From a virus: DNA of 23,228 bases. Positions 898 through 17,458 of the stretch are shown piece by piece. Position 1 is the first letter of the stretch; each line of letters begins with the position of its first letter. The translations under genes were made by a program, and so were the position numbers. A model generated the notes under the pieces. The model was not told where the DNA came from, did no database searches, and was given only the letters and a program-made list of their open reading frames with translations. Location: IMG/VR virus record IMGVR_UViG_3300036398_002809, positions 1-23,228 of that record, one strand, 5' to 3'.

Positions 898-2400
898 CTA
901 CATCCACCAGAATTTCTTTGCGGAAGCCGCTACGGTTACGGCCCCCGTTTGCCCGTTCACGCTGGTCACTGGCGCGGCAACCCACGCCCCATCGCCACGC
1001 AGATAGTTCGACGCCGATGCGGTGCCGGTGCCGAGCCTCGCGGTAGCCAGCACACCGCTCCCGATCTGCGAGGCGGGGAGGCTGGGGAGGCGGGCAACGT
1101 CGAACTGGCCCGAAGTCACCTGACTTGCGCTATGCGTATGAGAGAGGGCAGGTACATCGGTGCCGATGGCGAGCCCGAGATTCGTGCGCGCCGCCGAGGC
1201 CGTCGTCGCGCCGGTGCCGCCGTAGGCGACGGCAATCGCTGCACCTTGCCACTCGCCAATGGTGACAGCACTAACGCCCGCGACGCTGCCAGACTGCGAA
1301 ATCCCGAACTGTCCCGTCAGAGGGAAATTGACAGTAAACAGCGTACTTCCTGAAGATAAGTTGCCTCCGGTTGCGGTTAGACTTCCGGCCATCACCGACA
1401 TCACGCTGATCGCAGACGGCAGCCTCCCGTTCGCAAGCGTTCCCGTGAGGTCTGCCGCCGACCCGCTCGTGGCGACGGTCGCGAGGCCCGTAATGGTCGT
1501 CGCTGCCTGCGTTCCAGTGTGATTTGCCCGCTGCACCGCTGCGGCCTGGGCGGCGTTGGCCTTGGTCGTGGCGTCCGACGCGGCAGCCGAGGCTACGGCG
1601 GCGTCTGCGGCAGCTTGTGCCGTGCTGACGGGCTTCGAGGCGTCGCTGGTGTTATCCGCGTTGCCGAGGCCGACCATCGACTTGGTGACGCCGCTAACCG
1701 TTCCGGTGAACGTCGGGCTCGCGAGCGGGGCTTTCGCGGCGAGGCTGTTCGTCACGGTGGCCGAGAAGCTCGCGTCGTTCGCCAGTGCGGCGCTCAACTC
1801 TTGAAGCGTGTTCAAGCTCTCAGGGGCCGCACCCACGACGGCGGCGACCGCAGCGGAAACGTCACTCGTGCGGGCGATGTTCGAGGAGAGCCGCGCGTCG
1901 GGGAGAGTGCCGCTCGTCAAAAGCGAAGCGTTCGTGGTCGGCGGCGCGGCGGCAATGACGGCGCTTGTGAAGTCGCTGATGTCAGCGGCGACGTGCTGAT
2001 GGGTGGACGGCGGGAAGGTCGAGGGCTTGTCGGTGATGCCCGCCCAGGTCGTGGTGCCCGCAGGCCCGGCTGGTCCCGCTGGTCCCTGGATTCCGGCGAC
2101 GCCTTGGATTCCTTGAATTCCTTGCTCGCCGCGTTCGCCTTGCGGTCCCGTGGCCCCCGTTGCGCCGGTAGCCCCGGCGGGGATCGTGAAGTTCAGCACG
2201 GCCGCCGAGCTGGTGCCAGCGTTGACGACGCTCGCTGACGATCCCGGCGCACCCGTCGTCACGGTGCCGACCTGAACCGATGCAGCCGCGCCTGCCGTCC
2301 CCGTGGGGCCGACGCCACCGCTGACCGAAACGTCGATCTGCGTCTCTCCGACGCTCGCCGTGATCTGCTGGTTCGTCACGTTCGCGTTGATCGGCGGCAT
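898..2400 (-). CDS. Collagen-like tail fibre protein
   Basis: This 500-aa protein is built like a trimeric phage tail fibre. Residues about 76-116 form a collagen-like stretch of Gly-X-Y triplets (GATGATGPQGERGEQ and on to GPAGPAGPAG), which is expected to form a triple helix. The rest is Ala/Thr/Ser-rich repeats with HxH-type motifs (THQH near 132-135, HTH in the second half) and the NGQTGAVTV segment common near fibre C-termini. The protein ends with an aromatic tail, KKFWWM. The frame is open upstream to a Met at 2469, but ATG 2400 is the better start: it overlaps the TGA of the preceding gene by one base, like other junctions here, and leaves a sensible N-terminus (MPPINANV). It lies directly downstream of a baseplate-like gene, which fits tail assembly. 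Confidence 0.88.
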   Translation of the reverse strand: MPPINANVTNQQITASVGETQIDVSVSGGVGPTGTAGAAASVQVGTVTTGAPGSSASVVNAGTSSAAVLNFTIPAGATGATGATGPQGERGEQGIQGIQGVAGIQGPAGPAGPAGTTTWAGITDKPSTFPPSTHQHVAADISDFTSAVIAAAPPTTNASLLTSGTLPDARLSSNIARTSDVSAAVAAVVGAAPESLNTLQELSAALANDASFSATVTNSLAAKAPLASPTFTGTVSGVTKSMVGLGNADNTSDASKPVSTAQAAADAAVASAAASDATTKANAAQAAAVQRANHTGTQAATTITGLATVATSGSAADLTGTLANGRLPSAISVMSVMAGSLTATGGNLSSGSTLFTVNFPLTGQFGISQSGSVAGVSAVTIGEWQGAAIAVAYGGTGATTASAARTNLGLAIGTDVPALSHTHSASQVTSGQFDVARLPSLPASQIGSGVLATARLGTGTASASNYLRGDGAWVAAPVTSVNGQTGAVTVAASAKKFWWM

Positions 2401-2714
2401 CAAAGCACCTCCACGAAGCCGGTGAGGGCCGTTCGCGTGGCCTGGTTCTCGGTCCACTTCATTTGCCACCCGTAGGTGCCGCGAGCCAGGGCGGCGGTCT
2501 GCGTGTCGGTGAGGCTCACGTTTACCTGTCCGGCCGTGGCCGAGACGAACGACACGGTGAGCGGCTGCACCTCGGCACCACTCACCAGCGACGTGATGCC
2601 AGCGGTCACGGTGTAAGAGGCCAGCGATATGGAGAAGTCCACCATTGCGCTGAAGTCATCTGATCGTTTGAACGACAGATTGAGCGTGCCCGGCGTTTGA
2701 TCGTAGGAGGCCAT
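2400..2714 (-). CDS. Baseplate upper protein (BppU)-like small tail protein
   Basis: This 104-aa protein has the look of N-terminal domains of baseplate upper proteins. It is all-beta in character, with an early FKRSDDFSAMVDFSI segment, a LTDTQTAALARGTYGWQMKW segment and a closing TALTGFVEVL strand. Such proteins anchor receptor-binding fibres to the tail tip, which fits its place immediately before the collagen-like fibre gene. ATG 2714 overlaps the TAA of the preceding gene by one base. The family assignment is by pattern only. A generic small tail protein is the alternative. Confidence 0.7.
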   Translation of the reverse strand: MASYDQTPGTLNLSFKRSDDFSAMVDFSISLASYTVTAGITSLVSGAEVQPLTVSFVSATAGQVNVSLTDTQTAALARGTYGWQMKWTENQATRTALTGFVEVL

Positions 2715-7572: not shown

Positions 7573-7976
7573 GCGATCCGCACGGTGGTCCGTGCCTCCT
7601 GGCCGTAAGACTTCTCCACCACGAGCTTCGCCACCTGCGAGTCGTCCTCGAACGCCACGCCGTTCAAGGCGTCGAGGGCCGCCTTCGCGCAGTTGTCCAC
7701 GTCGAACCGTGGCAACAGCGGTGCCCCCTTCCGCAGCCCCTTCTTTGTCAGGTGCGAGGCCGGGCGGGCGAAGACGAGATCGAGGATCACCGTGAGCGGC
7801 TCCGTCGTGATCGGCGTTGCCCCGGCCTCGAGGGCCGCCGCTGCGATGGCCGCCCGGTACGCATGCACCGGGTGTTTCCCCGGCACATACGCCCGAGCGA
7901 ACCCGCCCCGCGTCGAGACTCTGGGCCTCGGCTGCGGCACGGGATCGCCGGGCACGGAGAAGGTCAACGGCTTCAC
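7569..7976 (-). CDS. rusA: RusA-like Holliday junction resolvase
   Basis: The 135-aa product matches RusA in size and in its key motifs. The core is FDVDNCAKAALDALNGVAFEDDSQV (given here as FDVDN at 91-95, the DALNG segment at 102-106 and EDDSQ at 110-114), containing the Asp residues that bind magnesium. RusA resolves four-way junctions produced by recombination or replication. The start is GTG at 7976 (VKPLTFSVPGDPVPQPRPR), overlapping the stop of a short membrane gene by four bases. The longer open frame upstream is not used. With RecT and the clamp it completes a small recombination/replication set. Confidence 0.92.
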   Translation of the reverse strand: MKPLTFSVPGDPVPQPRPRVSTRGGFARAYVPGKHPVHAYRAAIAAAALEAGATPITTEPLTVILDLVFARPASHLTKKGLRKGAPLLPRFDVDNCAKAALDALNGVAFEDDSQVAKLVVEKSYGQEARTTVRIA

Positions 7977-8122
7977 GGTGTCCTCGCGGCCATGTACAGA
8001 CCGACGTTCGCCGCCGCGTAGCCCGCGTAGGCAATTGCCAGCCCGTGCTTGCCGTGCGCAGCCAGGTCGGCAGACACGAACAGGTAGATCACGCCGGTGA
8101 GTGCGATGAGCCACGGGGCCAT
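7973..8122 (-). CDS. Very small membrane protein (49 aa)
   Basis: This is a short gene with ATG 8122 and TGA at 7973, overlapping the GTG of rusA. The product (MAPWLIALTGVIYLFVSADL, then LAIAYAGYAAANVGLYMAAR) has two hydrophobic stretches separated by a short polar turn (AAHGKHG), that is, a two-span hairpin topology. The start lies three bases after the stop of the secreted-protein gene. It is supported by perfect packing between its neighbours and by the membrane-protein composition. The function is unknown; small two-span phage proteins include holins and superinfection-exclusion proteins. Confidence 0.7.
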   Translation of the reverse strand: MAPWLIALTGVIYLFVSADLAAHGKHGLAIAYAGYAAANVGLYMAARTP

Positions 8123-8465: not shown

Positions 8466-8702
8466 TCAAGCGTCAGGCTCGGCCCGCCGCTGGGCGAAGT
8501 GCCGCTCGCGGCACTCCCGCGCCCGCTCTGCGATCTCGTCGGGCGTCGGGTCCACGATCCGCTTGCGGTACTTGCATACCCGATCCGGTATACCGTGCTC
8601 GCGGCGCAGTTCGTGCAGCCGTTGCCGCCGGATGCCGAGGTGCGCTGCGATCACATCCGCAGGCACCCCGGCATCCCACATCTTGCGAAGCGTCTCTAGC
8701 AT
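8466..8702 (-). CDS. Small HTH DNA-binding protein with DPTP motif
   Basis: The product is 78 aa, starting at ATG 8702 in a one-base TGATG overlap with the clamp gene. Residues 1-36 read as a helix-turn-helix (MWDAGVPADVIAAHLGIRRQ, then RLHELRREHGIP). The second half carries DPTPDEIAERARECRERHF, a motif shared with the gene at 5830-6174. It is probably a small DNA-binding regulator in the replication operon. The binding site is unknown. Confidence 0.8.
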   Translation of the reverse strand: MLETLRKMWDAGVPADVIAAHLGIRRQRLHELRREHGIPDRVCKYRKRIVDPTPDEIAERARECRERHFAQRRAEPDA

Positions 8703-9811
8703 CAGTCCTTCGCCAACGGCATGACCACGCCGGTGCAGTCGCCGCACCGGAACACCACCGCGCTCTGAGCGTCCACCGCCTCGACCTCGACGGGCTCGGC
8801 CTCGTCCACGCCCCGCAGGAACTCGACCACGAAGCCGGGGTCGAGCGCCACGCTCGCCGTCTGGCCCGCTTCCAGCAGACCGCACGTCACGCTCGACTGC
8901 CCCGCCTCGGCACTCTGCGCCGTCAGGTGGATGCCGTTCTCCACGAAGGCGAACGTCACGCCCTTCGACTGCTCACTCGTCACGATGGCCGCCTGCCGCG
9001 TCGCCGCCAGGAGCTCGGCCCCGTTCACGAGCGACGCCTTCGCATCCCGCTCGGGGATCACGTCACGCCACCGGGGGAAGCGGCCCTCGACGAGCCGGGC
9101 CGTCACCACCGTGCCGTCGATGGTCGCCACCACCTCGCGGTCGGTGGCCTCCAGCTGCACCGCCCCCTCGCTGTGCGAGGCGATGCTGCTGATGGTCAGG
9201 ATCGCACGCGCCGGGATCAGCGTCGTGGAGTCGTCCACCGCCTGGTCCACCTCGATGCCGTAGGACGAGAGCCGCCGCCCGTCCGTGCCCACCAGCGTCA
9301 CCGTGCCATCCTTCACCTCGACGAGCACCGCCCCGAGGGCGAACCGGCTCGAATCGGTGTCCGTCGCGTAGGCCACCGCCTTCACGGCCCGCACGAACTG
9401 GTCGGCCGGGATCCGGCAGATGGGCTTCACGGTGGGGGTTTCCCACTGTGGGAATTCCGCCGCGTCCTCCGTGGGCAGCGTCCAAGTGCCGCCGCCAACG
9501 CTCACCGTGCAAGAGTTGCCGCTGGGGGCCAGCGTCACCTCGTCGCCCGACGCGGCCCCGAGGATCGCCTGCAAGCGGGCGAACGGGAGCAGCAGCGGGG
9601 CGTCGGTGTACGGCACCTCGGCCGACACCTGAAGTTCAAGATCACTCGCCGTGATCCCGCCGTTTGCCAGGAGCACGTTGTGCAAGATCGGCTTCGGGCT
9701 TCTGCTTGGAACAGCGGCCCGCACCGCAGCCAGGGCGGCACGGAGCGCTGCGATCGGTAGGGAGATGCCACTGGCGCGAGCCTTCCGTGGCTTCGTTGCT
9801 GTTGCGGTCAT
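8702..9811 (-). CDS. dnaN: DNA polymerase III beta sliding clamp (phage-encoded)
   Basis: This 369-aa protein has the three-domain layout of bacterial beta clamps, close to the usual length. Recognisable parts include LHNVLLANGGITASDLELQVSAE in domain 1 (here HNVLLA and ASDLELQ), SSRFALGAVLVEV and LVGTDGRRLSSYG in domain 2, and ARLVEGRFPRWRDVIP plus the closing VVMPLAKD in domain 3 (compare VMPMRL in DnaN). The clamp encircles DNA and tethers polymerase and other partners through a hydrophobic cleft. No clamp loader or polymerase is seen in the window, so it would need host partners or genes elsewhere. ATG 9811 is chosen because an AGGA site precedes it and MTATATKP is a natural N-terminus. 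Confidence 0.93.
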   Translation of the reverse strand: MTATATKPRKARASGISLPIAALRAALAAVRAAVPSRSPKPILHNVLLANGGITASDLELQVSAEVPYTDAPLLLPFARLQAILGAASGDEVTLAPSGNSCTVSVGGGTWTLPTEDAAEFPQWETPTVKPICRIPADQFVRAVKAVAYATDTDSSRFALGAVLVEVKDGTVTLVGTDGRRLSSYGIEVDQAVDDSTTLIPARAILTISSIASHSEGAVQLEATDREVVATIDGTVVTARLVEGRFPRWRDVIPERDAKASLVNGAELLAATRQAAIVTSEQSKGVTFAFVENGIHLTAQSAEAGQSSVTCGLLEAGQTASVALDPGFVVEFLRGVDEAEPVEVEAVDAQSAVVFRCGDCTGVVMPLAKD

Positions 9812-9917
9812 GGGAATCCTTTCGTGAGAGTGACAAACCAACCATCACGCCGAGAACGAACGTCGCGGCGTTGAGCAAAAAACCGGCACAGATCAGGGCG
9901 AGTTGCGAGAGCGTCAT
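9642..9917 (-). CDS. Small membrane protein with long overlap into the clamp gene
   Basis: This 91-aa frame begins at ATG 9917 in an ATGA overlap with the upstream gene. Residues 1-32 (TLSQLALICAGFLLNAATFV, then LGVMVGLSLSRK) make one clear membrane span, followed by a polar region. The last 56 or so codons lie inside the start of the clamp gene in another frame (170-base overlap), and their composition (Arg, Pro, Cys) looks like a shadow rather than a selected domain. The membrane segment is convincing; the tail may be tolerated read-through. A sequencing error near 9811 that ends the gene early is an alternative. Confidence 0.6.
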   Translation of the reverse strand: MTLSQLALICAGFLLNAATFVLGVMVGLSLSRKDSHDRNSNEATEGSRQWHLPTDRSAPCRPGCGAGRCSKQKPEADLAQRAPGKRRDHGE

Positions 9918-10159
9918 GCGGCACCGCCCTTCTGGCTCAACATCGACTTGATGTAGAGCGCCATCTGGTGGGCTTCGGATTCGGTCTTCTCCAAGGTGGC
10001 GGCGTTCTTCACGAGCCGCGCGTGCAGCTCGCGGATCGTGTCGGCCGCCCACTCCAGCCGCAGCCGGGAGTCGTCGTCGATTGCGTCCAGCCATGCGGCC
10101 TGGGCGCACAGATCCGCCACGATCAGCGGAGCAGGGGCGGGGTGCGGGTTCTCACTCAT
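9914..10159 (-). CDS. Small helical protein, unknown function
   Basis: The product is 81 aa. A Pro-rich N-terminus (MSENPHPAPAPLIV) is followed by long amphipathic helices (RLEWAADTIRELHARLVKNA and onward), probably a coiled coil. ATG 10159 has a GAGGTGG-like ribosome site and overlaps the preceding HTH gene by eight bases. No family recognised. It belongs to the replication operon by position. Confidence 0.72.
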   Translation of the reverse strand: MSENPHPAPAPLIVADLCAQAAWLDAIDDDSRLRLEWAADTIRELHARLVKNAATLEKTESEAHQMALYIKSMLSQKGGAA

Positions 10160-10376
10160 CGACCACCTCCACGCTGCGGGCCTTGTTCGGGTTGCGACGC
10201 AGGTAGCCCTTCTTTTCGAGGGCGTTCAGGTGGCACTGCACCCCGTTGGGCGAGGCGATGCCGTGGGCCGCTGCGATCTCTCGCACGGTCGGGGCCGCGA
10301 GACGCGAGTTCTCACGAATCCAGTCGAGAAGCTCACGCTGGCGGGCGGTCAGGGGCGGTCGGGCTGTTGCGGTCAT
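10152..10376 (-). CDS. Stand-alone LexA-type winged-helix DNA-binding domain
   Basis: The 74-aa product matches the N-terminal DNA-binding domain of LexA almost end to end: LTARQRELLDWIRENSR (9-25), TVREIAAAHGIASPNGVQCH (30-49) as the helix-turn-helix, and LEKKGYLRRNPNKARSVEV (53-71) as the wing. The S24 autoprotease and dimerisation domain of LexA is absent, and the stop is natural, in an eight-base overlap with the next gene. A domain of this kind could bind SOS-like operators without RecA-induced cleavage, or act at the replication origin encoded next door. ATG 10376 overlaps the replication gene stop (ATGA). Confidence 0.88.
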   Translation of the reverse strand: MTATARPPLTARQRELLDWIRENSRLAAPTVREIAAAHGIASPNGVQCHLNALEKKGYLRRNPNKARSVEVVDE

Positions 10377-11218: not shown

Positions 11219-11636
11219 AGTTCACCTCGGACAAGTTCATTGCCGCCTGTGCTTGATGGCAGCCGACTTCCAAATCGCAGAGCAAACGCAAGACCCGAGA
11301 CGCCTCCTCAAGGCCAGGGCGCACTAAGTGGCTGTATCTGTCGCTTAGATGCAGGCTGCAAAAAAAGCGATAAGCGTCATGGACGGCATCGACTTCGCAC
11401 GAATACACGTTCCCCGCTCTGCCAAAATGCCTCAGCATGATGCAGCCACTTTTCGTGAGCCTTTCAACCACGCCAGTCCATATTTCCGGCGAAAGACCGC
11501 GACGGTACGCATACCATCCGGTCACCGGCTCCCCATTTATCCGCCTTCGATCAGCGTCCTCCTGGTGAATCCACATGCACCAGAAGACCCGCTGGCCGAC
11601 GTAGCAATCTCGTACACGCAGGTGCTCACCGGTCAT
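11208..11636 (-). CDS. Unknown early phage protein
   Basis: The product is 142 aa, starting at ATG 11636 in a one-base TGATG overlap with the upstream gene. It is rich in Cys, His and aromatic residues (VFWCMWIHQEDADRRR, GWYAYRRGLSPEIWTGVVER) and ends in a helical region. The mixture could suit a small zinc-binding or nucleic-acid-binding protein, but no spaced CxxC pair is visible. It is translated between the PD-(D/E)XK-like gene and the initiator gene. No function assigned. Confidence 0.7.
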   Translation of the reverse strand: MTGEHLRVRDCYVGQRVFWCMWIHQEDADRRRINGEPVTGWYAYRRGLSPEIWTGVVERLTKSGCIMLRHFGRAGNVYSCEVDAVHDAYRFFCSLHLSDRYSHLVRPGLEEASRVLRLLCDLEVGCHQAQAAMNLSEVNYGR

Positions 11637-12199
11637 CACACACCTGCCTTTTGCAGCTTCATGCTGCCGCCGTAGGTTTCGTAGATCCGTGCCCACACTT
11701 CACGGCGTGGAACAAAGACGCACTCGCTGTGGTACTCGCTGCCGTTCCTGCGGGTACGCTGCGTGCTGACCTTGTATTCATCACGCCACGCTTCCCAGTG
11801 TTCAGCGAACACGCCGCAGAGCATTGGGAACGGGATAAGGCAGTAGCGGCCCGTCTCCTTCCACAGCCAAAGAACGTAGTCGCACCGCTTGTTGGTATCG
11901 CGCGTCCAGCCGACGATGCCCTTCTCAACAACGGACCACGTTTCCAGCGCTAGGTCGTCCTCGTCGGGATGGGTCGCGGCCCAGTCCTCCTCACGCACCT
12001 TGGCGTCAACAGCCAGGTGCTTGGCGTTAGTCATCTCAACCCACCAATCGACGCCGAGGCGGTCGTTTTCCTTGGCGGCAGCGTGCGCGTCCAAAGCGCC
12101 TGGAATTGCCGACAGAAGAACGTCGCGAACGTCAACTGACGCTGCGTGTCCAGACGACATCAGCAACTGCTCATCGAAGTCGTATTCATTTGGTCGCAT
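11636..12199 (-). CDS. PD-(D/E)XK-like protein, candidate nuclease
   Basis: The product is 187 aa. The central region has a PD-(D/E)XK-like order: GVDWWVE (Asp51), then AVDAKVR (Asp65-Ala-Lys67), then LETWS (Glu86), with beta-like segments between and the hydrophobic CDYVLWLWKETGRYCLIPF (107-125). This arrangement is seen in many phage and restriction nucleases, though short motifs alone are weak proof. ATG 12199 overlaps the ParB/MT-A70 gene by 14 bases. Two roles fit: an exonuclease partner of RecT, or a nuclease paired with the adenine methyltransferase. The alternative is a non-catalytic relative of the fold. Confidence 0.65.
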   Translation of the reverse strand: MRPNEYDFDEQLLMSSGHAASVDVRDVLLSAIPGALDAHAAAKENDRLGVDWWVEMTNAKHLAVDAKVREEDWAATHPDEDDLALETWSVVEKGIVGWTRDTNKRCDYVLWLWKETGRYCLIPFPMLCGVFAEHWEAWRDEYKVSTQRTRRNGSEYHSECVFVPRREVWARIYETYGGSMKLQKAGV

Positions 12200-13334
12200 T
12201 GGTGTTTTCCCCCCAAGCAACCCAGCCGGGCCGCGCCGATCGCGAGAACATTTCCAAGAACGGGCCAGGGCTGCATGACTCAACGAGCTCAAGGAATTCA
12301 GGCGGCTTGCTGCTATGCCCGGCCGGACCACGGTCGGCCTCGAAGACGGTGCCAACGTCCTTGCGCTTCAGCGGCTGGCTGCCCTTTACGCCAAACAGGA
12401 CGTGCTCGGTCTGGCCACGGAAGTAGTTGCCCATCCCGAAGTGCGGCTTAACCCATGTAATCGCCGTGATGTAGCGAAAGCCCCACGCCTCAAGCAGGCG
12501 AAAGCCCTTTGGCAGCGATCGGTTGGTGATCCACAGGTAGATGTGACAGTCGTCATCGGCCAAGCCGCCGACATCAAGTCGCTCAAGCTGCTCGATTGAC
12601 ATCGTGCTGTAGTCGGGGCGAGCGCGGCCGAGCTGGTCTTGGTCGCCTTCGTCGCCCCAGTCCCAAGGCGGATCGATGACGATCGTGGCGTACTTCGCCT
12701 GTGCGACAGCGGCGGCCTTCTCTGGCTCAGGAACGGCCGCAATCTTCTGGCGGTTCTCTTCGCGGCGAGCCTCTCGTGCCTGCTCTTTTAGTTCACGCTT
12801 TACTTGCAGGACGGGGCGGCCCTCCTCAACGGCCTTTTTCAGTTCAGGGGTTTTCTCAACCTCCTCGTAGAATTTTTCGGCACGTCGGACTGTCGCTGGT
12901 GACACTCCATGCTGAACGGCAAGCCGCTCCGCAGTCTTCAACTTGTGATCATTTTGATCACAAGTCAGGTCGTTTCTCTTGCCTTGGCTTTTTTCAAGCT
13001 TGTAGTCCAGCCCCAAAAGATACGTGAAAGAATCAGCGGTGAGGTTTCGCCGCCCGAGTTGATTCTTGACGATCCAATGGCGGGCCTCGTCGGTGCTCTT
13101 AAGCCGCATCTCGTGAACGTCAAACGGCAGTCCTAGCCGCGTGCAGATCTCGTAGCGGTTGTGGCCGTCGAGCAGCGTGAGCGTCCCTTTGCTGGCCCAC
13201 GCCACCAGCGGGTCGCGAGCACCGCCGTGCTCGACGATGTTCTCTTCGAGTTGCTGCCGCTCTTCGGCCGACAGCGGTGGGATCAGTGCGGCAAACTCGG
13301 CGTCGATCTGGATGTCTTCAAATACCTGCGGCAT
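12186..13334 (-). CDS. ParB-like/MT-A70 fusion, N6-adenine DNA methyltransferase
   Basis: The product is 382 aa with two parts. The N-terminal domain is ParB/Spo0J-like: LVAWASKGTLTLLDGHNRYE (43-62) with the LDGHNRYE box, and a helix-turn-helix at about 133-155 (KTAERLAVQHGVSPATVRR). The C-terminal part is MT-A70: DPPWDW at 221-226 as the catalytic/SAM motif, then YLWITNR, AITWVKPHFGMGNYFRGQTE and GHSSKPPEF. This fusion is known in phages and mobile elements and is predicted to methylate adenine in DNA. Its purpose may be protection from host restriction, gene regulation or origin control. A strong AAGGAGG site precedes ATG 13334. A 25-bp inverted repeat lies inside the gene at 12941-12965. 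Confidence 0.9.
   Translation of the reverse strand: MPQVFEDIQIDAEFAALIPPLSAEERQQLEENIVEHGGARDPLVAWASKGTLTLLDGHNRYEICTRLGLPFDVHEMRLKSTDEARHWIVKNQLGRRNLTADSFTYLLGLDYKLEKSQGKRNDLTCDQNDHKLKTAERLAVQHGVSPATVRRAEKFYEEVEKTPELKKAVEEGRPVLQVKRELKEQAREARREENRQKIAAVPEPEKAAAVAQAKYATIVIDPPWDWGDEGDQDQLGRARPDYSTMSIEQLERLDVGGLADDDCHIYLWITNRSLPKGFRLLEAWGFRYITAITWVKPHFGMGNYFRGQTEHVLFGVKGSQPLKRKDVGTVFEADRGPAGHSSKPPEFLELVESCSPGPFLEMFSRSARPGWVAWGENTNATK
12941..12965. repeat. Perfect 25-bp inverted repeat with two GATC sites inside the methyltransferase gene
   Basis: The arms ACTTGTGATCA (12941-12951) and TGATCACAAGT (12955-12965) are perfect over 11 bp around a TTT centre, and each contains TGATCA (a GATC site). 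The DNA codes for the linker between the ParB-like and MT-A70 parts of the methyltransferase. It may be a protein-binding or self-methylation site, or simply reflect the encoded residues. Confidence 0.75.
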
Positions 13335-14136: not shown

Positions 14137-14455
14137 CGTTGTGTTCCTCAGGTGTTGCTTTGCTTGCGTGTCTCACGGCGGCGCGAGCGCCGCCCCAGAC
14201 GTTGACGATCACGGCGTCGGTCAGTTGCCCGCGCTCTGCGAGCACCTGGTCGAGCCCCACGAGTGCCTTGTAGAGCTCCCACCCAGCCGCCCTCGCCTGC
14301 TCGGGAGTGAGCGTCGCCATCGGCATCGGCTGGAAGCCGCCGCTGCGAACCCGTGAAGGCATCCGAATCGGCGGACGATCCTTCATGCGGATGTCCGACT
14401 CCTCGCGGCGAGCCTCCTCTTCGAGGTAGGCGAAGGTGGTGATGGGCTGGGTCAC
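14033..14455 (-). CDS. Small phage protein downstream of RecT, unknown function
   Basis: The product is 140 aa, starting with GTG at 14455 in a GTGA overlap with the recT stop, which makes translational coupling likely. It has a basic N-terminal third (RREESDIRMKDRPPIRMPSR), a helical middle (LTPEQARAAGWELYKALVGL) and an acidic, Ala/Gly-rich, probably disordered tail. Phage recT genes are often followed by a partner gene (single-strand-binding protein or exonuclease), but nothing here resembles either; it may be an accessory factor. Confidence 0.72.
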   Translation of the reverse strand: MTQPITTFAYLEEEARREESDIRMKDRPPIRMPSRVRSGGFQPMPMATLTPEQARAAGWELYKALVGLDQVLAERGQLTDAVIVNVWGGARAAVRHASKATPEEHNDGVARQLDADAKEETAPAAGGSPHEGSGGEAGDA

Positions 14456-15255
14456 GACTGTGCCTCCGCCATGAGTGCGTCGAGCTTCGCGTGGATGGCC
14501 GAGCAGATTTCCTTGTGCTCGTCCTCGGTGAACGTGCCGTCGCCCAGCCGCTCGTCGGCGGTCGTCCGCAGGGCTTCGAGCCGGTCGATCGTGGTCGCCC
14601 GGCTGACGGCCGCACGGGCCTTCTCAATCGCTGACGGGGCCAAGGCGACCTGCACGGCGGCAGGCACCGGCGTGTCGAACTTGGGCCGCACCTGCACCGG
14701 CTCGCGGGCGGGTTCGGCCTGCGGGTAGTCCTGGGCCTCCTCTGCCGTGATGAGGCCACGCAGGGCGTCTGCAAAGGCGTTGCGAAGGGCAAAGCCACGA
14801 GCACGCAGGGCCAGCATCCGCTCGGGGTATTGGGTCCACGGGCCGCTCTTGCCAGCCAGCCCGGCCCGCTTGGCGTCGGCCATCGAAAACCGGCTGATCG
14901 TCGGAGCCGGGTAGCCGCGACGCTTGGCCTCGCACACGGCGGTCAGGTTGTCGCCCTGGCCCTCGGTGTATTCCTTGACGTATTCGCAGACGGGGCTGCT
15001 CTGCACCAAGGCCAGGGCAGCGTCGCCCCAGATCGTGGGCCTGCCGTTGATGACGGCGATGCTCTGAAGCGATTGCATCGGGCTCAAGCCGACTTCGCTC
15101 CCGTGCTGGATGGCCAGCATGCAGGACTCTGGCTTGCCCCTGAAATCCTTGGGGGCGAACTCTGACGCCGCCACCATCTTCGAGAAGCGGAAGGCGTCGT
15201 CGAACGATTGAAGGGCAAGTCCGCCTGCCCGCTGCGTTGAAATCTCCGTGCTCAT
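14452..15255 (-). CDS. recT: RecT-family single-strand annealing protein
   Basis: The 267-aa product has RecT size and recognisable core segments: FRFSKMVAASEFAPKDFRGK (32-51), HGSEVGLSPMQSLQSIAVIN (about 60-79) followed by GRPTIWGDAAL, then the segment with SGPWTQYPERMLALRARGFA. RecT anneals complementary single strands and promotes strand invasion in phage recombination. The C-terminal quarter is helical and less conserved. ATG 15255 is supported by a purine-rich site (AAAGGGACGCGAAAG). RecT is often paired with an exonuclease; the PD-(D/E)XK-like gene at 11636-12199 is the only candidate in the window. Confidence 0.88.
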   Translation of the reverse strand: MSTEISTQRAGGLALQSFDDAFRFSKMVAASEFAPKDFRGKPESCMLAIQHGSEVGLSPMQSLQSIAVINGRPTIWGDAALALVQSSPVCEYVKEYTEGQGDNLTAVCEAKRRGYPAPTISRFSMADAKRAGLAGKSGPWTQYPERMLALRARGFALRNAFADALRGLITAEEAQDYPQAEPAREPVQVRPKFDTPVPAAVQVALAPSAIEKARAAVSRATTIDRLEALRTTADERLGDGTFTEDEHKEICSAIHAKLDALMAEAQS

Positions 15256-15332
15256 CTTTCGCGTCCCTTTCTGCGTGATGTGAAAACCGGCTCCGCGTCC
15301 TGCCTTGCCGGTCGTTTCCCTTCCGTGGCGTA

Positions 15333-15347
15333 CCCGGCTCCGCCGGG
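15333..15347 (-). other. GC-rich hairpin in the leader of recT
   Basis: A perfect 6-bp stem (CCCGGC/GCCGGG) with a 3-base loop lies between the small gene at 15357-15581 and recT. No run of T follows on the minus strand, so it is not a canonical intrinsic terminator. It could be a partial terminator or an attenuator that limits readthrough into recT. The block CCGGCTCCGC is also found about 48 bases away in the same gap, giving a short direct repeat. Confidence 0.35.
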
Positions 15348-15356
15348 CTCCGTGTT

Positions 15357-15581
15357 TCAGTGCGTGATGTCGTGAACGCTGACGGCCAGCCATGCGCCGC
15401 CCACGTCCACCGTGAGGCGGTCGCCCTCGACCCACTCGACCCGGCCCTGCCACCGGCGGCCTGCGGTGCAGCCGCTCACGAAGTCGCCCTCGGCGGGCAG
15501 GGTCGCCGGGCTCGGGGTGTGGTCAGCCATCCCAGCGACGGCGGCCAAATACTCGTTGTGATGGGGGTCGGTACTGAACAT
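15357..15581 (-). CDS. Small early protein, unknown function
   Basis: The product is 74 aa. After a polar N-terminus (MFSTDPHHNEYLAAVAGMAD) it has a small beta-rich domain (EGDFVSGCTAGRRWQGRVEW, RLTVDVGGAWLAVSVHD) resembling an SH3- or OB-like barrel in rhythm. An AGGAG site lies 11 bases before ATG 15581, and a good promoter with TTGACA sits just upstream. The family is unknown. Confidence 0.72.
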   Translation of the reverse strand: MFSTDPHHNEYLAAVAGMADHTPSPATLPAEGDFVSGCTAGRRWQGRVEWVEGDRLTVDVGGAWLAVSVHDITH

Positions 15582-16533: not shown

Positions 16534-16570
16534 AGTGACCGAAGGACCACGGAAAGCGAAAGGAAAGGCC

Positions 16571-17458
16571 ATGAAACTGCGAGAGTTCCTGCACGAAAGA
16601 TATGCGATCCTCCACAATTTGAAAGCCCGCAGCGTCGAGCTCTACACGTTCTCGATCGACCGCTTCGGCGACTTCCTCGAACGCGAGCCGGAACTGTCTG
16701 ACTTAGAGGATCTGACGGTATCCAAGTTCCTGCGGTGGCGGGCGGTCACGCCACACAAGGGCAAGATCGCACGCCCGGCATCCGTGGCAAAGGACAAGTG
16801 CCAACTGCTCGGGCTGTGGAACGCAGCCGCACGCAAGCGGCTGGTGGAGCACTTCCCCGATCTGGCCCGCAATATCGTCCGCGTTCCCCACCGACCGCCC
16901 CAGGCGTACACGGTGGAAGAGATCAGCCGCATGGTGCGGGTGGCCAAAACCCGGCAGGGGATGGTCGGCCCGGTCCCGGCCGCGTGGGTTTGGCCGACGC
17001 TCTTGATGTCGTGCTACTTCACCGGGGAGCGCATCGGCAGCCACCTCGAAGTACGCTGGCAGCAGATCGACTCCACCCGCCGCACGGTCACGTTTCTCTC
17101 GGAACACCGCAAGGGGCTCGGGCGCACGATTACGCGGGCGATCACGCCGCAACTGGTTCAGATGCTGGACACGGCCCGTCGCGGCCCTGACGAGCTTGTA
17201 TGGCCTTGGCTGCAACACCGCGAGATCGGCTCGCTGTGGCCACGGATTCGGGACATATGCCTAGCGGCAGGCGTAACGCCGAAGGGCTTCCACGCCATCC
17301 GCAAGGCGGCCGGTTCCTATGTCAAAGCTGCTGGCGGCGATGCCACGGAGTTCCTGACGCACGCGGACGGGCGAACGACCAAGGACCACTACCTCGACCC
17401 GAAGATCGTGGGCGAGGCGTCGGCCTTGGATTTCCTGCCGCCGCTCGACATCAACTGA
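16571..17458 (+). CDS. int: Tyrosine recombinase / phage integrase
   Basis: This 295-aa protein is the only plus-strand gene. Catalytic residues are all present: Arg154 in TGERIGSHL, Lys181 in EHRKGLGRT, His241 and Arg244 in FHAIRKAAG, His264 in LTHADGRTT, and the nucleophile Tyr274 in KDHYLDP. The N-terminal 100 residues form a SAM-like core-binding domain (LREFLHERYAILHNLKAR). It would insert the phage into the host chromosome by site-specific recombination. ATG 16571 is chosen because AGGAAAGG lies immediately upstream; the frame opens 12 codons earlier without a site. An attP would be expected close by, but no core could be identified without the host junction. Confidence 0.95.
   Translation: MKLREFLHERYAILHNLKARSVELYTFSIDRFGDFLEREPELSDLEDLTVSKFLRWRAVTPHKGKIARPASVAKDKCQLLGLWNAAARKRLVEHFPDLARNIVRVPHRPPQAYTVEEISRMVRVAKTRQGMVGPVPAAWVWPTLLMSCYFTGERIGSHLEVRWQQIDSTRRTVTFLSEHRKGLGRTITRAITPQLVQMLDTARRGPDELVWPWLQHREIGSLWPRIRDICLAAGVTPKGFHAIRKAAGSYVKAAGGDATEFLTHADGRTTKDHYLDPKIVGEASALDFLPPLDIN

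Follow-up and report, generated by a model that had tools for sequence, protein, structure and literature searches.

An overlapping gene pair of a ParB-like/MT-A70 methyltransferase and a PD-(D/E)XK-like protein in uncultivated phages: a possible restriction-modification-like unit

In Mesorhizobium phage Lo5R7ANS, the gene of a BglII-family restriction enzyme (Pfam 3.2e-50) overlaps the gene of an MT-A70 methyltransferase. In marseilleviruses, a restriction enzyme adjoins an adenine methyltransferase, and this enzyme was missed by standard domain tools and found through REBASE (PMC7253447). According to another report, ParB-CTPase-fold domains are fused to methyltransferases in phage proteins, and the MT-A70 fusions of this fold are enriched in archaea (PMC12704722). 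Moreover, in a survey of gut phages most Type II methyltransferases came without a restriction enzyme, as judged by similarity to known enzymes (PMC10711547). The principle considered for the locus described here, restriction-modification, is a known one, which here comes with a new family of partner protein and with a ParB-like fusion of the methyltransferase. In the literature searched, no description of this pair of methyltransferase and 187-aa protein was found, and an earlier mention may exist.

The window, that is, the whole stretch of DNA analysed, is the virus record IMGVR_UViG_3300036398_002809 in its full length of 23,228 nt (positions 1 to 23,228), and both genes of the pair lie on its minus strand. 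The first of them in reading order, at 12186-13334, encodes a DNA methyltransferase of 382 aa, recognised from its ORF and from Pfam, PHROG and PADLOC matches. Its ParB-like N-terminal region (residues 1-125, at 12960-13334) contains an LLDGHNR box, matches the ParB-like families of PHROG and was delimited with the aid of an identity table. The MT-A70 domain follows at residues 215-376 (12207-12692; Pfam E 1.9e-25), and it keeps the catalytic motif DPPW intact within the stretch DPPWDWGDEGD. The protein also matches the PADLOC model MTase_II (E 4.7e-49), and in the alignments its MT-A70 catalytic domain is the most conserved part of the whole unit. The second gene, at 11636-12199 with its ATG at 12199, encodes the 187-aa partner, a PD-(D/E)XK-like candidate nuclease according to the alignments and an AlphaFold2 model. 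By their ORF coordinates the two reading frames share 14 bp (12186-12199), exactly as an earlier note on this DNA had reported, and this overlap suggests that the two genes are co-translated.

Several other genes of the window could be recognised. RecT is encoded at 14455-15453, close to the pair, and a RusA-type Holliday junction resolvase at 7632-8034 on the minus strand (Pfam 1.4e-18). The phage has a DNA polymerase III beta sliding clamp of its own (8702-9841, minus strand) with all three Pfam domains present, and relatives of this clamp recur across several related phage contigs. Adjoining the replication initiator, a 74-aa protein consists of a LexA DNA-binding domain alone, without the protease domain (10155-10376, minus strand; Pfam 1.6e-21). 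By eye, the product of 898-2469 (minus strand) looks like a tail-fibre protein with collagen-like G-x-y repeats (GPQGERGEQGIQG), and the ORF at 16535-17458, which lies on the plus strand, opposite to nearly all other genes, resembles a tyrosine recombinase or integrase and thereby suggests a temperate phage.

The 187-aa protein carries the signature D...(D/E)xK of PD-(D/E)XK-type proteins, and its residues D51, D65-x-K67 and E86, already pointed out in the earlier note, are indeed at these positions and are invariant in all 69 aligned sequences, together with R69, G49, G97 and W98. On the minus strand of the window, the D51 codon, for the first acidic residue, is at 12047-12049, the codons of the (D/E)xK motif D65-A-K67 are at 11999-12007, and the E86 codon is at 11942-11944. 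Among close relatives of the protein dN/dS is 0.02-0.11, and therefore the protein is real and under purifying selection. The AlphaFold2 model, computed from an alignment of 45 sequences, reached a mean pLDDT of 85.8. It contains a helix (24-31), a strand (35-40), a short helix (43-48) and a second strand (52-56) with D51 just before its start, followed by a third strand (61-69) that would bear D65xK67, a strand (82-90) that would bear E86, two further strands and then a long helix; as modelled, this order of elements fits the PD-(D/E)XK core. Searched with Foldseek, the model gave noise alone against solved structures (best E 0.28). Against viral models the top four matches had E values of 1.4e-5 to 9e-4; one of the four is a NO VEIN C-terminal-domain protein, and the others are uncharacterised proteins of phages. 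The viral matches that are named as nucleases all have weak scores. The top viral fold match is ORF5 of Phormidium phage Pf-WMP3 (ORF4-ORF5, at 1855-3729 of L105); ORF4, just before it, shows by eye a ParB-like GGGRHRRA stretch and has no methyltransferase domain. The 187-aa family matched no family of Pfam, PHROG, NCBIfam or PADLOC. Since the nuclease matches by fold are weak and no database family was matched, the protein is called PD-(D/E)XK-like with moderate confidence; the model did not show the unrelated fold that would have spoken against the earlier note, and the assignment of the fold is no more than moderate.

The pairing of the two genes is established by computation and is far beyond chance. 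When the 187-aa protein was used as the query, 18 relatives were found in IMG/VR, and the search based on the alignment found 21 loci; the methyltransferase alone as the query returned 80 loci. When the searches are pooled and each contig is counted once, the methyltransferase is encoded by 80 contigs, and in 64 of them a member of the 187-aa family comes right after it, at gaps of -28 to +19 nt. The other 16 consist of 14 contigs with a different gene family in this slot, one (L075) with both proteins in a single reading frame and one that ends inside the methyltransferase. To obtain a sample whose selection did not depend on the partner, DNA that encodes the methyltransferase signature DPPWDWGDEGD was sought throughout IMG/VR. 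This gave 72 records, some of them near-identical and hence not all independent. The partner lies directly after the methyltransferase in 67 of the 72, with the L075 chimera included; in four the stretch ends after the methyltransferase, two of these belonging to contigs whose partner is known (L065, L058), and in one (L160) a different gene is found downstream. In total, 69 of the 70 signature records that can be assessed carry a relative of the 187-aa protein directly downstream, so that the pairing is near-obligate in this sample and the supposition that the two genes rarely co-occur clearly fails. The partner family itself spans 20-97% identity to the protein of the window, and all four of its homologues in bacterial genomes follow such a methyltransferase. 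One relative is very distant (L029 7839-8456; 20% identity in the full alignment), and nothing in its 16-kb stretch matches the methyltransferase. Among sequenced phages and plasmids, relatives were found neither for the 187-aa protein of the window nor for a distant member, the second slot family or the L160 gene. In phages sampled by eye, namely a Mannheimia phage, Stx phage P27, a Hafnia phage and a Nitratiruptor phage, an MT-A70 gene stands without an annotated nuclease beside it, and therefore the pairing is not general among the MT-A70 genes of phages. The idea that L075 is a natural fusion was rejected: its methyltransferase match ends at residue 350, so that about the last 30 residues are missing, and the partner contains an in-frame stop beyond which its remainder can still be read. 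L075 thus has the look of a chimera made by deletion.

The 14 contigs with another gene in the slot (L078 3318-3851, L094 7350-7895 and 12 further loci) carry it after a different type of MT-A70 domain. This family 2, of about 180 aa, has no significant Pfam or PHROG match, and its model is of lower confidence (pLDDT 72.9) with an order of elements similar to that of family 1, the 187-aa family. It probably has the same fold as family 1, because three viral fold matches (A0A6J7X1K0, A0A6J5QZY8 and A0A516KWU2) are shared by both. The hhalign comparison of the two families is weak (P 0.02) and places D51 on D42 and D65-A-K67 on A-C-R, so that D65 and K67 have no counterparts in family 2. In L160, the slot gene (8636-9232; 199 aa) overlaps the methyltransferase by ATGA, and this methyltransferase apparently has no ParB-like N-terminus. 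The gene has no significant database match and no D-x-K; by eye it resembles family 1 in the order E-D-..-G-V-D followed by Q-V-R-A-R, which at most suggests a kinship, and hhalign gave a 30-column match alone, in the E-D-..-G-V-D region. If the family 2 and L160 genes are relatives of family 1, proteins that lack the usual catalytic pair can also occupy the slot.

The relation between the two genes is also visible in how they change. Where a member of the 187-aa family adjoins the methyltransferase, the identity to the window's enzyme is 64-97% in the MT-A70 half, and in the ParB-like half it is 28 to 80% or there is no match. For the 14 family 2 loci the figures are 31-34% in the MT-A70 half and 52-81% in the ParB-like half, and their RecT, replication initiator and clamp are still recognisable as those of the window's relatives. 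That is to say, phages that differ from the window in the MT-A70 domain and in the partner gene still share the ParB-like region. In the sliding comparison of L078 with the DNA of the window, the identity is 85-100% from 14148 to 13129. Over what remains of the methyltransferase gene, over the partner gene and over the small ORF that follows, most values lie below 55%, and at 11226 the identity begins to rise again. Therefore, the MT-A70 domain and the partner are replaced jointly while the flanks on both sides are conserved, and the exchanged cassette occupies 11226-13129 (minus strand). In the 69 loci compared, partner divergence tracks that of the MT-A70 domain when the ParB-like domain is corrected for (partial r 0.41), and the relation of the partner to the ParB-like domain with the MT-A70 domain accounted for is close to zero (partial r 0.05). 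The raw correlation between partner and MT-A70 divergence is moderate (0.54), so the two are coupled and do not diverge in lock-step. Indirectly, the joint exchange in L078 may point to a recognition sequence common to both enzymes.

Taken together, the best-supported reading is that the methyltransferase and the 187-aa protein form a phage-borne restriction-modification-like pair, to which we give about an even chance. The layout has precedents in the marseilleviruses and in Lo5R7ANS, the latter being a clear case of it from a phage. The MT-A70 enzyme would methylate adenine within a recognition sequence of the phage's own DNA, with the ParB-like domain as the likely DNA-handling or NTP-switch part of the methyltransferase, and the PD-(D/E)XK-type protein would cut unmarked DNA, be it of the host, of plasmids or of competing phages. 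For the partner we infer the nuclease fold and activity, the dependence of its cutting on methylation, the target site shared with the methyltransferase and this biological target. The modification and cleavage pair proposed in the earlier note thus stands as far as it concerns a conserved unit (69 of 70 records), its joint exchange (L078), an invariant signature and a matching predicted order of elements; against it, the sequence of the 187-aa protein matches none of the known families of restriction enzymes or nucleases. Cutting, moreover, may not be required of the slot, given the family 2 and L160 genes without D-x-K. Nothing else speaks as strongly against a simple restriction reading as these slot genes, and on their account the explanation is kept that the 187-aa protein is a non-cutting accessory, that is, a nuclease-like fold serving as a subunit for DNA recognition, as a clamp or as a regulator which targets or restrains the MT-A70 enzyme. 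Family 2, in 14 loci, shares three fold matches with family 1 and has no counterparts of D65 and K67, the L160 gene lacks the motif as well, and the exchange together with the MT-A70 domain would suit a specificity partner equally well. However, D51, D65, K67 and E86 do not vary in 69 sequences that are otherwise down to about 20-30% identical to the protein of the window, and because such invariance is hard to explain without catalysis the accessory explanation is weakened; we consider it possible, though on the whole unlikely.

Two further explanations would give the 187-aa protein a place in the DNA metabolism of the phage. As a structure-specific or repair nuclease, it would act as a Holliday-junction resolvase or by nicking in the manner of Vsr or MutH, on replicating or hemimethylated phage DNA. 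Its gene sits in a recombination and replication region, the distant member L092 weakly matches the PHROG of Holliday junction resolvases (phrog_843, E 0.034), and in other phages MT-A70 genes lie near an annotated resolvase (Malisha) or RecU (nd4). The window, however, encodes RusA, and a RusA match occurs in nine further pair records, in eight of them over the cut-off. Since RusA is encoded in these records, the role of resolvase is already filled there, which makes it less likely for the 187-aa protein; a joint exchange with the MT-A70 domain would also be unexpected for a general repair enzyme, and this explanation is thus distinctly doubtful. The earlier note had also proposed a recombination nuclease that pairs with RecT, and an exonuclease working with this annealing protein would suit the RecT gene nearby, no other exonuclease having been recognised among the window ORFs scanned. 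Against this, seven pair records (L024, L049, L061, L064, L086, L092 and L098) contain a separate YqaJ exonuclease that passes its curated cut-off, and they also match RecT, over the curated cut-off in five of the seven and below it in L024 and L061. RecT, YqaJ and RusA all accompany the pair in the records L086 and L092, and many other pair records, which may be incomplete, have no RecT match. No exonuclease family of Pfam or PHROG was matched by the window protein or by the 45 aligned members. The RecT-partner exonuclease is therefore disfavoured and is regarded as highly improbable.

If the restriction-modification-like pair is true, it is a phage-borne pair for marking and cutting DNA that occurs in many uncultivated phages and is missed by present databases. 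Phage methyltransferases are often counted as orphans, whereas those of the present class nearly always have a partner, one that escapes Pfam, PHROGs, NCBIfam and PADLOC. Should this partner be a cutting enzyme, complete restriction-like systems would be more numerous in phages than has been counted, and phages could turn them on host DNA or on rivals; should it not be one, it would represent a new kind of methyltransferase accessory. A wider and more tentative proposal, which we think rather unlikely as a whole, is a modular system for marking and cutting (or marking and binding) DNA. In it, a ParB-like methyltransferase with an NTP switch would work with interchangeable PD-(D/E)XK-like partners, some of them catalytic and others without the catalytic pair, and phages would change the target that they recognise by trading the MT-A70 domain together with its partner.

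Compared with known systems, the present pair is like that of Lo5R7ANS in that a phage MT-A70 gene overlaps the gene of a PD-(D/E)XK-type protein, a designation that for the 187-aa protein is a prediction. It differs in that its methyltransferase has a ParB-like domain and in that the methyltransferase gene comes first in order, and no similarity between the 187-aa protein and the BglII-family enzyme of Lo5R7ANS was detectable. As regards the fold, the likeness is to NO VEIN C-terminal-like and uncharacterised phage proteins such as PfWMP3_05, which share the predicted fold and the pattern D...(x)xK...E...W...D; the best matches of this group have about 11-16% identity to the 187-aa protein, and PfWMP3_05 has serine in place of D65 and is preceded by a gene without a methyltransferase domain. 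With the ParB-CTPase-fold fusions, the locus has in common a ParB-like domain and a methyltransferase in one phage protein, a partner nuclease not being mentioned in the passages of that report considered here (PMC12704722). Like the marseilleviruses and chloroviruses, the phages studied here carry a methyltransferase beside a protein which standard domain tools miss, but those are viruses of eukaryotes and their enzymes are GATC-specific and related to CviAI (PMC7253447). Finally, the methyltransferase domain matches the Type II methyltransferase models of PADLOC, and in this respect the pair resembles Type II restriction-modification systems.
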